From a virus: a stretch of 22,496 bases of DNA. Shown here one piece after another: positions 5,731 through 13,107 of this stretch. Within the stretch, counting starts at the first letter, position 1. Every line of letters begins with the position of its first letter. The translations under genes and the position numbers were made by a program. A model generated the notes under the pieces. It worked only from the letters and a program-made list of their open reading frames with translations. It was not told where the DNA came from and ran no database searches. The stretch is taken from positions 1 to 22,496 of the IMG/VR virus record IMGVR_UViG_3300042507_001049. One strand, 5' to 3'.

Positions 5731-6246
5731 ATGCTGACACTACTCTCAACCTTAATCTCATTCTTGATGGGCGGCTTGCCCAAGATTCTTGACTTTTTCC
5801 AAGACCGTTCGGATAAGAAACACGAGTTGGCGCTGGCGCAAATGCAGATCACCCGCGAACTAGAACTGCGTAAAGCTGGCTTTGAAGCGCAAGAGCGCAT
5901 TGAACACATCAAGTCAGAGCAGTTGGAAACAGAAAGCGCGGCCAGCACCAAGCAGGCTTTGATCGGCGCGCAGCAGGCTGAGATGCAAGCCGTCTACGCC
6001 CACGACACCGCGCTTAACGAAGGCACTAGCGAGTGGATGAAAAATCTGCGCGCCAGCGTGCGCCCCGTGATCACATACGGTTTCTTCTTTTTGCTAGTCT
6101 TCGTTGACGTGGGTCTGTTCGCCTACGGCTGGAACAGCGGCGTGTCGTTCACTGAGTTGGCCGAGATGCTGTGGGACTCTGACACCCAGGCGTTGTTTGC
6201 CAGCATCATCGCGTTCCACTTTGGCGGCAGAGCGTTTGGCAAATGA
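5731..6246 (+). CDS. Holin of the 3TM superfamily
   Basis: A 171-residue protein matching the layout of the 3TM holin family first described from gene transfer agents. A hydrophobic N-terminal segment (about residues 1-23) is followed by a long charged helical region (about 26-105) with repeated ELALAQMQITRELELRKAGF-type heptads. Two more membrane helices lie at about 108-130 (VITYGFFFLLVFVDVGLFAYG) split by a short turn, and 148-170 ending in FHFGGRAFGK. The terminal FGGRAF motif is typical of this family. It would form the inner-membrane hole releasing the endolysin encoded right after it; the two genes overlap by four bases (ATGA). Confidence 0.85.
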   Translation: MLTLLSTLISFLMGGLPKILDFFQDRSDKKHELALAQMQITRELELRKAGFEAQERIEHIKSEQLETESAASTKQALIGAQQAEMQAVYAHDTALNEGTSEWMKNLRASVRPVITYGFFFLLVFVDVGLFAYGWNSGVSFTELAEMLWDSDTQALFASIIAFHFGGRAFGK

Positions 6247-6719
6247 AAATATCAGCCAAGTGTTTACACATGATTCGCCATCACGAGGGCGTGAGGCAGA
6301 ATCCATATAAATGCCCTGCAAAGCTGTGGACTGTGGGCGTGGGTCACGTCATGTTCCCAGAGCAGGGCAAACTCAAGATAGACCAGCGCGACGCCTTTGT
6401 GCCCCCGCCAGAGGCCATGCGTAAGCACTCAATGGAGGAAGTCGATGCAATACTTAGGGCCGATCTTGCTCGCTTTGAGAAAGGCGTGGCTACTTATTGT
6501 CCTGTGCCTCTTACTCAAGGACAGTTTGACGCGCTGGTTTCATTTTCTTTCAATGTAGGGCTTGGCACACTCCAGAGGTCAACCATGCGGCAAAAGGTGC
6601 TGCGTGGTGACATGGAGGGCGCTGCCGAGGAGTTGCTGAAGTACTGCATGGCTGGCGGCAAGGTCTTAAAAGGCCTCCAGACGCGCCGAATTGACGAACG
6701 GGCACTATTCCTTAGTTAA
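6243..6719 (+). CDS. Endolysin, GH24 lysozyme (muramidase)
   Basis: A 158-residue glycoside hydrolase family 24 lysozyme that cleaves the MurNAc-GlcNAc bond of peptidoglycan. The catalytic signature E-x8-(D/C)-x5-T is intact: E15 in RHHEG, C24 and T30 in LWTVGVGH. The second half has the typical QFDALVSFSFNVG helix and the ending QTRRIDERALFL. The family's usual length is matched. There is no signal peptide or SAR helix at the N-terminus, so it should need a holin to reach the periplasm, consistent with the neighbour upstream. Its last 15 bases overlap the 3' end of the convergent gene, around a CCTTAGTTAAGG near-palindrome. Cys in place of the common Asp is a known family variant. Confidence 0.93.
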   Translation: MKISAKCLHMIRHHEGVRQNPYKCPAKLWTVGVGHVMFPEQGKLKIDQRDAFVPPPEAMRKHSMEEVDAILRADLARFEKGVATYCPVPLTQGQFDALVSFSFNVGLGTLQRSTMRQKVLRGDMEGAAEELLKYCMAGGKVLKGLQTRRIDERALFLS

Positions 6720-10553: not shown

Positions 10554-10574
10554 CAATTATTTTTGTGCTACATT
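10546..10574 (+). promoter_or_regulatory. Rightward sigma70-like promoter with extended -10
   Basis: -35 TTGCAC (10546-10551), a 17-base spacer, and -10 TACATT (10569-10574) preceded by TGC, an extended -10. Predicted start is about 10581. A 5' leader of about 22 bases with AAGGA (10591-10595) leads to the GTG at 10603. It would drive the replication block. The spacer is filled by a palindrome, so it is probably repressible. Confidence 0.6.
10548..10568. promoter_or_regulatory. 21-bp palindromic operator between divergent promoters
   Basis: Arms GCACAACAAT (10548-10557) and ATTTTTGTGC (10559-10568) around a central T; the second arm's complement is GCACAAAAAT, so 9 of 10 positions match. The site overlaps the -35 of both divergent promoters and fills the spacer of the rightward one. 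This placement is typical for a dimeric repressor controlling both directions. No repressor gene was found in the window. Confidence 0.6.
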
Positions 10575-10602
10575 CAAAGCTCATTAACTAAAGGACAGTA
10601 AA

Positions 10603-10791
10603 GTGAAAAACGAACCAGCATTCCCCGCTATGCACTATGACTTAGCAGACAACGAACATGGCTTGACCATGCGTGACTACTTTGCGGCCAAAGCCATGCA
10701 AACACTTGCTGAGAAATACAGCCATGAAGGTGATGTTTCTCGTAACGCTTACAAAATTGCCGACGCCATGATGAAAGAAAGAGGTCAATGA
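10603..10791 (+). CDS. Small conserved phage protein (GLTMRDYFAAKAM motif)
   Basis: A 62-residue protein beginning MKNEPAFPAMHYDL and containing GLTMRDYFAAKAMQ, a motif seen in many small phage proteins near early or replication genes. Function unknown. It starts with GTG, seven bases after an AAGGA SD. It is the first gene of the rightward replication block and its stop overlaps the next start (ATGA). No metal or nucleotide motif is present. Confidence 0.8.
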   Translation: MKNEPAFPAMHYDLADNEHGLTMRDYFAAKAMQTLAEKYSHEGDVSRNAYKIADAMMKERGQ

Positions 10792-11927: not shown

Positions 11928-12560
11928 ATGTCTAGTTTAGTAACCTTCTCTCAAGCAAACCTCCCCGCCGTTTCAACCTTGTCTAGCGCTTTGCGTTCGA
12001 TCCAAGCCGAAGTCGGCCCAGCCGGTGTTGTCATCCTCAAGATGGACAAAACTGGTCACTGGGTCTTTGGTGCAGATCAAACCGAAGTCGAAGACGACGC
12101 TGTTTGGGCTGTCAATCCTTTCTCCTTTGTCCACGGCTTTATTGCTTGGGGCGATGGCGAAGTGTTGGGCGAGAAAATGACCAGCGTTAGCAACCCACTG
12201 CCTGCTTTGGATGAGGCACCCCCTCAAGCCAAGAAGGGCTGGGAGAGCCAAGTTGGCATGTCTCTGAAGTGCATTAGCGGCGAAGACAAGGGAATGGAAG
12301 CACGCTTCACCACCACGTCAGTGGGCGGCAAGCGCGCAGTACAAACCTTGGCTGTGGCTTTGGCCGAGCAAGTCGAGAAAGACCAAAGCAAGCCAGTGCC
12401 AGTCGTGCGTTTGAAGAAAGACCACTACGCTCACAAATCCTACGGCAAGATTTACACGCCAGTGTTTGAACTTGTCGAGTGGGTGAGCATGGATGGCGAG
12501 ACTCCTGAAGTCGCGCCTGAGCCAGAAGCAGCGCCTACACGCCGTCGCCGTAGCGCTTAA
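11928..12560 (+). CDS. Unassigned protein in SSB/recombination position
   Basis: A 210-residue soluble protein following AAAGGAAAATC. A helical N-terminus (FSQANLPAVSTLSSALRSI) leads to a beta-rich middle (GHWVFGADQTEVEDDAVWAV, KGWESQVGMSLKCISGEDKG), then VVRLKKDHYAHKSYGKIYTP, and a Pro/Glu-rich tail ending in RRRRSA. Lying right after a DUF2800-type nuclease and before the polymerase, it occupies the place where related phages carry a ssDNA-binding protein. A beta core plus flexible tail would fit an OB-fold protein, but the tail is basic, not acidic, and no family is recognised. SSB is only an inference. Confidence 0.65.
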   Translation: MSSLVTFSQANLPAVSTLSSALRSIQAEVGPAGVVILKMDKTGHWVFGADQTEVEDDAVWAVNPFSFVHGFIAWGDGEVLGEKMTSVSNPLPALDEAPPQAKKGWESQVGMSLKCISGEDKGMEARFTTTSVGGKRAVQTLAVALAEQVEKDQSKPVPVVRLKKDHYAHKSYGKIYTPVFELVEWVSMDGETPEVAPEPEAAPTRRRRSA

Positions 12561-12567
12561 CTTTCTG

Positions 12568-12589
12568 AAGCCCCGTGACAGGGGGCTTT
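12568..12589 (+). terminator. Weak terminator-like hairpin after 12560, with the next -35 in its loop
   Basis: AAGCCCC (12568-12574) pairs with GGGGCTT (12582-12588), loop GTGACAG, followed by only TTT. The U-tract is poor, so it would be leaky. The loop carries the GTGACA -35 box of the ncRNA promoter. A similar hairpin core recurs at 17365-17384. Confidence 0.45.
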
Positions 12590-12603
12590 GGAAAGTGTAT
12601 GAT
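12575..12603 (+). promoter_or_regulatory. Sigma70-like promoter of the structured RNA
   Basis: -35 GTGACA (12575-12580; one mismatch to TTGACA), 17-base spacer, -10 TATGAT (12598-12603; one mismatch to TATAAT). The predicted start is about 12610, exactly at the 5' base of the first RNA hairpin. It is among the best sigma70 matches in the window. Confidence 0.65.
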
Positions 12604-12609
12604 AGGGCT

Positions 12610-12710
12610 GTGCTTGGCGGCACATTCAAGGTAAGCCCTAGTCTGCATTCTGCTCGCACCTTGCGAGTCCGCCAACACCTTACGGTGAGAATGCAGTCTA
12701 GGGCTTTTTT
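12610..12710 (+). ncRNA. Structured ~101-nt RNA with three hairpins, pseudoknot and built-in terminator
   Basis: Hairpin 1: GUGC 12610-12613 with GCAC 12620-12623, loop UUGGCG 12614-12619. Long closing stem: 12633-12651 pairs with 12688-12706, 18 of 19 positions, single U-U mismatch at 12642/12697, then U6 (12705-12710), so it doubles as an intrinsic terminator. Enclosed hairpin 2: CUCGCA 12653-12658 with UGCGAG 12662-12667. Enclosed hairpin 3: CACC 12676-12679 with GGUG 12684-12687, loop UUAC. The junction strand CGCCAA (12670-12675) is perfectly complementary to the whole loop of hairpin 1, giving a predicted pseudoknot. A promoter ends seven bases upstream. It lies between an unassigned gene and the HNH gene. 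No known RNA class could be matched by eye. Leader/attenuator for the HNH gene is the main alternative to a free sRNA. Confidence 0.65.
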
Positions 12711-12720
12711 ATTGGTCTAT

Positions 12721-13107
12721 ATGGAAAAGATATGTTTAACCTGCAGTGTAGGGTTTAGTGCAAAACGTGGCTGGCAAAAGTTTTGCACGGCTAAATGCAG
12801 AAACAATTCGCCAACTAAAAAACTGGTAACGCAAGCGTTTCAACAATCGCGCAGAACTCTTATAGATAAAATTAAAGTAGAACGTGGGTGTTCTATTTGC
12901 GGATACAAAGCACATGCCGCCGCGTTAGATTTCAACCACATCATCGGCGACAAAAATTTCAGCATTAGCCAAGACCCCAAAGTAGCGTTGCATAAGTTAT
13001 TAGGCGAAATAAACAAGTGTGAAATTTTGTGTGCTAATTGTCATCGCGTGCATACGTACGAACACCGCCATTGGCAAACTAAACGCAAACTAAAGGCGGC
13101 CGCATGA
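12721..13107 (+). CDS. HNH homing-type endonuclease with N-terminal zinc finger
   Basis: A 128-residue free-standing HNH endonuclease. N-terminal zinc finger: C5-x2-C8 with C22-x3-C26 (CLTC and FCTAKC). A basic helical linker follows. The HNH core has C57-x2-C60 (CSIC), FNHI (N72, H73) and C104-x2-C107 with H108 (CANCHR), i.e. the zinc-stabilised beta-beta-alpha-metal fold that nicks or cuts DNA. ATG 12721 gives the natural family start but has no SD; the frame is open upstream through the RNA, with another ATG at 12691 inside the long stem after GGTGA. Its third positions are visibly more AT-rich than in the polymerase gene it is ATGA-coupled to, suggesting acquisition as a selfish or moron element. 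Confidence 0.8.
   Translation: MEKICLTCSVGFSAKRGWQKFCTAKCRNNSPTKKLVTQAFQQSRRTLIDKIKVERGCSICGYKAHAAALDFNHIIGDKNFSISQDPKVALHKLLGEINKCEILCANCHRVHTYEHRHWQTKRKLKAAA

Follow-up and report, generated by a model that had tools for sequence, protein, structure and literature searches.

A widespread, doubly pseudoknotted phage RNA family positioned before replication and endonuclease genes

The window, the whole 22,496-nucleotide stretch of viral DNA analyzed here, contains a structured RNA element at 12610–12710 and raises the question of what kind of RNA this is and what it does for the phage. A sequence-only reading had described a compact RNA with its own promoter and terminator and with one pseudoknot, belonging to no recognized class. 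The sequence elements it named are all present in the window: a 17-nt spacer separates GTGACA from TATGAT, hairpin 1 is followed by a long stem forming 18 of 19 pairs with a single U·U mismatch (12633–12651/12688–12706), two further hairpins lie inside that stem, and a U6 run closes the element. A second pseudoknot, pairing 12627–12632 with 12658–12663, was missed by that reading. The features are as follows.

12575..12580, + strand: −35-like hexamer GTGACA, assigned by sequence; the same GTGACA hairpin occurs in relatives without the RNA, and the hexamer is not conserved with the RNA
12598..12603, + strand: −10-like hexamer TATGAT, conserved across members; the start site is expected at ~12610
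12610..12623, + strand: P1 (hairpin 1), with which the RNA is predicted to begin, loop UUGGCG at 12614–12619; 3 of 4 stem pairs covary, and pairing is 100% across 101 members
12614..12619, + strand: PK1 5' strand UUGGCG, partner 12670–12675; intact variants all compensated in a PK1-unbiased sample
12627..12632, + strand: PK2 5' strand CAAGGU, in the linker, partner 12658–12663; own versus swapped pairing
12633..12651, + strand: P2 5' arm, long stem and also the 5' arm of the putative terminator; covariation
12652..12668, + strand: P3 (hairpin 2), whose loop holds the PK2 3' strand; of 4 pairs counted, 3 covary
12658..12663, + strand: PK2 3' strand ACCUUG; own versus swapped pairing
12670..12675, + strand: PK1 3' strand CGCCAA, in the three-way junction; covariation, compensated variants
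12676..12687, + strand: P4 (hairpin 3); covariation in 4 of 4 pairs
12688..12706, + strand: P2 3' arm; covariation
12705..12710, + strand: U6 run, intrinsic-terminator-like end, its first two U paired in P2; assigned by sequence
12711..12720, + strand: ribosome-binding region of the next gene, 10 nt from U-run to ATG; start within 20 nt in 186 of 192 members
12721..13107, + strand: HNH endonuclease gene (PHROG 2255 HNH endonuclease, E = 2.2e-25), inserted together with the RNA

All six helices (P1, P2, P3, P4, PK1 and PK2) are mutually compatible. The predicted fold of 12610–12710 has an energy of −48.9 kcal/mol against −27.9 ± 3.0 kcal/mol for dinucleotide shuffles (z = −7.0, 0 of 200). A descriptor combining the hairpin, the complementary junction, the long stem and the T-run, composed once the structure was already known, matches once in the window and never in 200 Markov-resampled sequences of equal length. 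Comparative data point the same way. Across an alignment of 102 members, compensatory, both-side changes occur at 33 of 37 pairs (PK1 included), with P2 changing in this way at 19 of 19 pairs. Paired cells amount to 97.5%, versus 74.8% in shuffles and 35–44% in slid versions, for an alignment fitted to the nested part of the fold with PK1 outside the model. Conserved bases are almost all paired. The earlier judgment that such a combination is improbable by chance is thus borne out, and compensatory change at 33 of 37 pairs removes doubt about the structure itself.

The two pseudoknots were evaluated separately. PK1 looked invariant in the first sets because the search pattern itself had selected for it; samples retrieved by way of P2 took their place. 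Among members fetched through P2 only, with both PK1 strands present, 120 have the canonical UUGGCG/CGCCAA and 23 have variants; by inspection, all 23 keep the pairing (18 UUGGCA/UGCCAA and 5 UUGACG/CGUCAA). One further record fetched this way is truncated at the 5' end. Compensatory changes between 12614–12619 and 12670–12675, which the sequence-only reading had singled out as decisive, are therefore found. Further PK1 types are UUGGCC/GGCCAA (L565), UUGGUC/GACCAA (L570) and CUGCAA/UUGCAG (L207/L566). For PK2, pairing with the molecule's own strand averages 6.24 bp, versus 4.26 bp when hairpin-2 loops are swapped among members (maximum of 300 swaps, 4.58 bp). These comparisons show a conserved fold with both pseudoknots; the first observation is real and was understated. 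A coding reading was also considered. A frame is open through the RNA in the window, but the reading was rejected because hairpin-3 loop lengths among members differ by non-multiples of three.

The class is large. The structural descriptor recognizes the RNA at 241 places, mostly on viral contigs, which between them hold 170 distinct sequences; a few of these places (for example L335 and L412) are likely chance matches. Members were collected by scanning once with a pattern of the pseudoknot strands, twice with P2 only and once through bacterial genomes. A covariance model (R1) built from 13 members finds, at E < 1e-7, 101 matches from 100 sources; the window scores 108.2 bits (E = 8.4e-26), being itself among the model-building sequences. 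Nearly all members lie on viral contigs, whose phages are likely those of Burkholderiales. Members in bacterial genomes lie on contigs assigned to Paraburkholderia (L339, L389), and other members in metagenome-assembled genomes belong to Burkholderiales and Betaproteobacteria (L387, L368), with one in Rhodospirillaceae (L391). Of 399 genomes from the order to which the Paraburkholderia hit belongs, only 2 have the RNA, as expected for a phage element. Only two of 50,697 deposited phage genomes match; these records are of the same length and both come from one spring. In one of them (L102, MW202462.1), a hypothetical protein is annotated across the RNA on the opposite strand (817–1059) and is probably spurious. 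The family has escaped notice because it is carried by freshwater phages that are not in culture.

Does the fold correspond to a known RNA? The supposition that it belongs to no described class agrees with our searches. Against Rfam 15, neither the window nor eight loci with diverged members gave a family match at the gathering threshold, and at a permissive threshold the RNA alone returned only chance-level microRNA and leader models. Literature searches found no description of the RNA; subscription papers lay mostly outside these searches, so novelty with respect to the literature is unproven. The pistol ribozyme likewise begins with a hairpin, and the loop of that hairpin base-pairs to a strand of the junction enclosed by the following stem. 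The likeness is one of topology only, as the RNA here has an extra hairpin, a second pseudoknot and a terminator-like end; moreover, it has no Rfam ribozyme match and no conserved unpaired catalytic core of a self-cleaving ribozyme. The lambda pR'–tR' leader (6S RNA) and oop RNA are short terminated transcripts before or beside a phage operon, as is predicted for the present element. Neither is known to have a conserved double-pseudoknot fold, and oop is an antisense RNA. Leaders of free-standing phage homing endonucleases are alike in placing structured RNA before HNH or NUMOD4 genes; unlike them, the present RNA is followed by a replication-protein cluster in 121 of 231 downstream ORFs.

A similar layout is that of AbiF and type III toxin–antitoxin units, with a promoter, a structured RNA, a terminator and then a gene (PMC12373285). 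In the RCd22 AbiF unit, a structured noncoding RNA with its promoter and Rho-independent terminator precedes a co-transcribed gene, and transcription mostly ends at the terminator (PMC12373285). Unlike these systems, the RNA described here has no repeated motif and no Rfam abiF match, its fold occurs only once at each site, and the genes that follow it encode proteins of many families, replication proteins and endonucleases among them, rather than one toxin. What is new, as far as these searches reach, is the RNA family; its mode of action may be familiar attenuation.

Comparison with relatives reveals how the element came to lie at its present site. The upstream gene in the window (11928–12560) has many relatives in IMG/VR; its closest PHROG is annotated as a nucleotidyltransferase, and it has no Pfam match. 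In most of its close relatives, the stop codon and a hairpin are followed by ...GGAAAGGAGACGCCAATG of a DNA polymerase gene (or by another gene), without the RNA. In the window and in L027, ...GGAAAG is instead joined to the promoter–RNA–HNH block. The RNA and the HNH gene, whose start codon lies 10 nt past the U-run, form one block, and both are absent from the close relatives. The block was thus inserted at a ribosome-binding site in the window's relatives. Other relatives have the same RNA before NUMOD4-HNH-like genes (L091, L096, L097, L100 and L101), and in L280 it lies directly before a polymerase-like gene.

The older hairpin, CUUUCUGA-stem-UUGGAAAG(GAG), occupies window positions 12561–12595, 3' of the upstream gene, and overlaps the ribosome-binding site of the next gene. 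It is kept in relatives with a varying stem (GCCCC/GGGGC, GGGCG/CGCCC, GCCGC/GCGGC) and could be a translational operator. Insertion of the new RNA took place at the 3' foot of this hairpin.

The transcription signals are predicted from consensus and placement. A −10 element with no more than one mismatch to TATAAT is found at a consistent distance in 153 of 221 members, compared with 37 of 221 when the upstream sequence is shuffled. It is the −10, and not the GTGACA −35, that is conserved with the element, because GTGACA forms the loop of the older hairpin in relatives that lack the RNA. Conservation of GTGACA as a −35 is unsupported. At the other end, the U-run is kept in nearly all members, and the G+C-rich base of P2 (GCCCUAG/CUAGGGC) followed by U6 has the sequence form of an intrinsic terminator, so that termination is predicted at P2 and the U-run. 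Next comes a short stretch rich in G and then a start codon, which falls within 20 nt of the U-run in 186 of 192 members but at only 104 of 706 other terminator-like sites on the same contigs. This tight spacing could partly reflect the compactness of phage genomes.

The genes on either side of the RNA are varied. Downstream ORFs fall into about 30 clusters, some probably spurious. The commonest of these is a replication initiator/primosomal protein cluster, and the other ORFs among the 231 include NUMOD4-HNH (25), ParB-like (12), GIY-YIG-like (6, PHROG 'endonuclease'), HNH, DNA polymerase and others. An 84-residue protein (MLKFQATEGCEAFINDAGCL...), which has no Pfam or PHROG match, is encoded directly after the RNA in 20 members; in L252, its gene follows the RNA at 6210–6313 (minus strand). 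Upstream, the commonest neighbor is a Cro-like regulator (39 of 158), and the window's own upstream gene type accounts for 15 of 158. A role as an HNH-specific accessory RNA was rejected, since 64%-identical HNH relatives (L084–L088) have no RNA and most members precede other genes.

With slightly better than even confidence, we regard the family as new phage leader RNAs, in which an abundant terminated RNA forms and leaky or regulated read-through expresses the next gene. Transcription from a sigma70-type promoter would begin at the first base of hairpin 1, and the nascent RNA would fold into a compact body of hairpin 1 and a long P2 around two hairpins. PK1 would tie the hairpin 1 loop into the three-way junction and PK2 the 5' linker into the hairpin 2 loop. 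With P2 and the U-run acting as an intrinsic terminator immediately before the ribosome-binding site, most transcripts would end at the U-run as a stable RNA of ~100 nt, and the read-through fraction would give the replication or endonuclease gene downstream a set level of expression. Covariation, both pseudoknots, the conserved −10, the placement, the insertion, and the Cro-like and replication-initiator neighbors are points in favor of this leader. Action in cis is favored because placement just 5' of the ribosome-binding sites of varied genes is near-invariant; placement and consensus likewise suggest that read-through is controlled. The RNA is present as a single copy in 96 of 98 viral records, as for the leader of one operon. 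The family is widespread, and its fold is both intricate and rich in covariation; since it heads replication and homing-endonuclease genes, it may be a general phage means of metering early gene expression, a question directly testable with a 100-nt element.

With its mutually compatible helices the leader is unlike a classic switch, and a comparison of members turned up no conserved alternative antiterminator structure. Pairing between the 3' end of P2 and the ribosome-binding region is weakly above controls (own 11.2 versus swapped 9.7, maximum 10.9). A hairpin between these segments was rejected as a universal antiterminator, being missing in about one-third of members, the window included. 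No internal switch was found in the full fold, which makes a riboswitch less likely and would allow for control that depends on a protein or on the polymerase. No ligand is suggested, because the downstream genes have no common metabolic theme.

The same placement bears on the earlier suggestion of a free-standing regulatory, decoy or anti-defence RNA. The compact, pseudoknotted phage RNA of that proposal is confirmed, and its free-standing nature is not favored by the position 5' of so many different genes. In its general form, the RNA would act in trans as a protein or nuclease decoy, an anti-defence RNA or an inhibitor of the host polymerase, and gene adjacency would be incidental to compact genomes or to hitch-hiking with homing endonucleases. 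Promoter-like and terminator-like ends of its own, the usual single copy per phage and the pairing of nearly every conserved base, as in RNAs recognized by shape, are consistent with this. Two records have several copies, three in that of L471 (L565; PK1 UUGGCG, UUGGCA and UUGGCC) and two in that of L207 (L566; UUGGCG and CUGCAA). Within each record all copies differ in PK1, as would be expected if copies must not cross-react; these two cases hint at selection against cross-pairing. A trans-acting RNA nevertheless gives no reason for the placement directly before the ribosome-binding site and offers no conserved unpaired stretch as an antisense seed, and we consider this main rival of the leader doubtful.

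Contact with RNA polymerase would be another way to use a nascent fold. HK022 put RNA (~70 nt, two stem-loops, no built-in terminator) suppresses termination through the zinc-binding domain of RNA polymerase (PMC9378689). The present RNA resembles put in being a structured, fold-conserved 5' RNA of phage early transcripts, a likeness of structure and position. If it worked as put does, its 5' fold would touch the polymerase and set read-through of its own and later terminators, in keeping with a 5'-terminal position at the head of early or replication operons, often after a Cro-like gene, and with conservation of structure rather than sequence. The architectures differ, as put has only its two stem-loops without a terminator and the put structure paper mentions no pseudoknot (PMC9378689); an RNA-only element that acts by antitermination or by binding the polymerase is unlikely here. 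A strong terminator, insulator or mRNA 5' stabilizer, with pseudoknots serving stability alone, would fit the terminator-like end and the burial of the 5' end in hairpin 1 and of the 3' end in P2. For such a role, neither the two pseudoknots nor the fixed three-way junction conserved across ~170 distinct sequences would be needed, and it is very unlikely. A broader and tentative view, which we hold possible, is that of a trans-acting or polymerase-touching regulator whose active shape is locked by the two pseudoknots, with the PK1 sequence as the specificity that keeps copies orthogonal; at least two further pseudoknotted classes in these phages would then point to a larger superfamily of phage RNAs that are borne on terminators.

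One such class, mostly located away from start codons and to that extent in line with action in trans, is found at L468:9291-9425, L468:9985-10087, L475:9266-9400, L435:3335-3466, L465:2872-2978 and L433:4791-4878. It has a promoter-like start and a hairpin, CUAUG-loop-CAUAG, inside a terminator-like stem, and the 6–7-nt loop of this hairpin is complementary to a downstream hairpin loop (for example UGACGG/CCGUCA, UGCGGU/ACCGCA and UGUGGG/CCCACA). It gave no Rfam match in three of its records, and once it lies directly before the start of a NUMOD4-like endonuclease. A third class (L441:2348-2507, L304:10402-10554 and L463:4020-4177) has a TTGACA/TATAAT-like promoter and complementary strands that vary among its members (CCAAAC/GUUUGG, CAGUAC/GUACUG and CAGGGA/UCCCUG). 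In L304, this RNA lies just before the Rfam Betaproteobacteria-1 RNA (RF02932) at 10563–10680.
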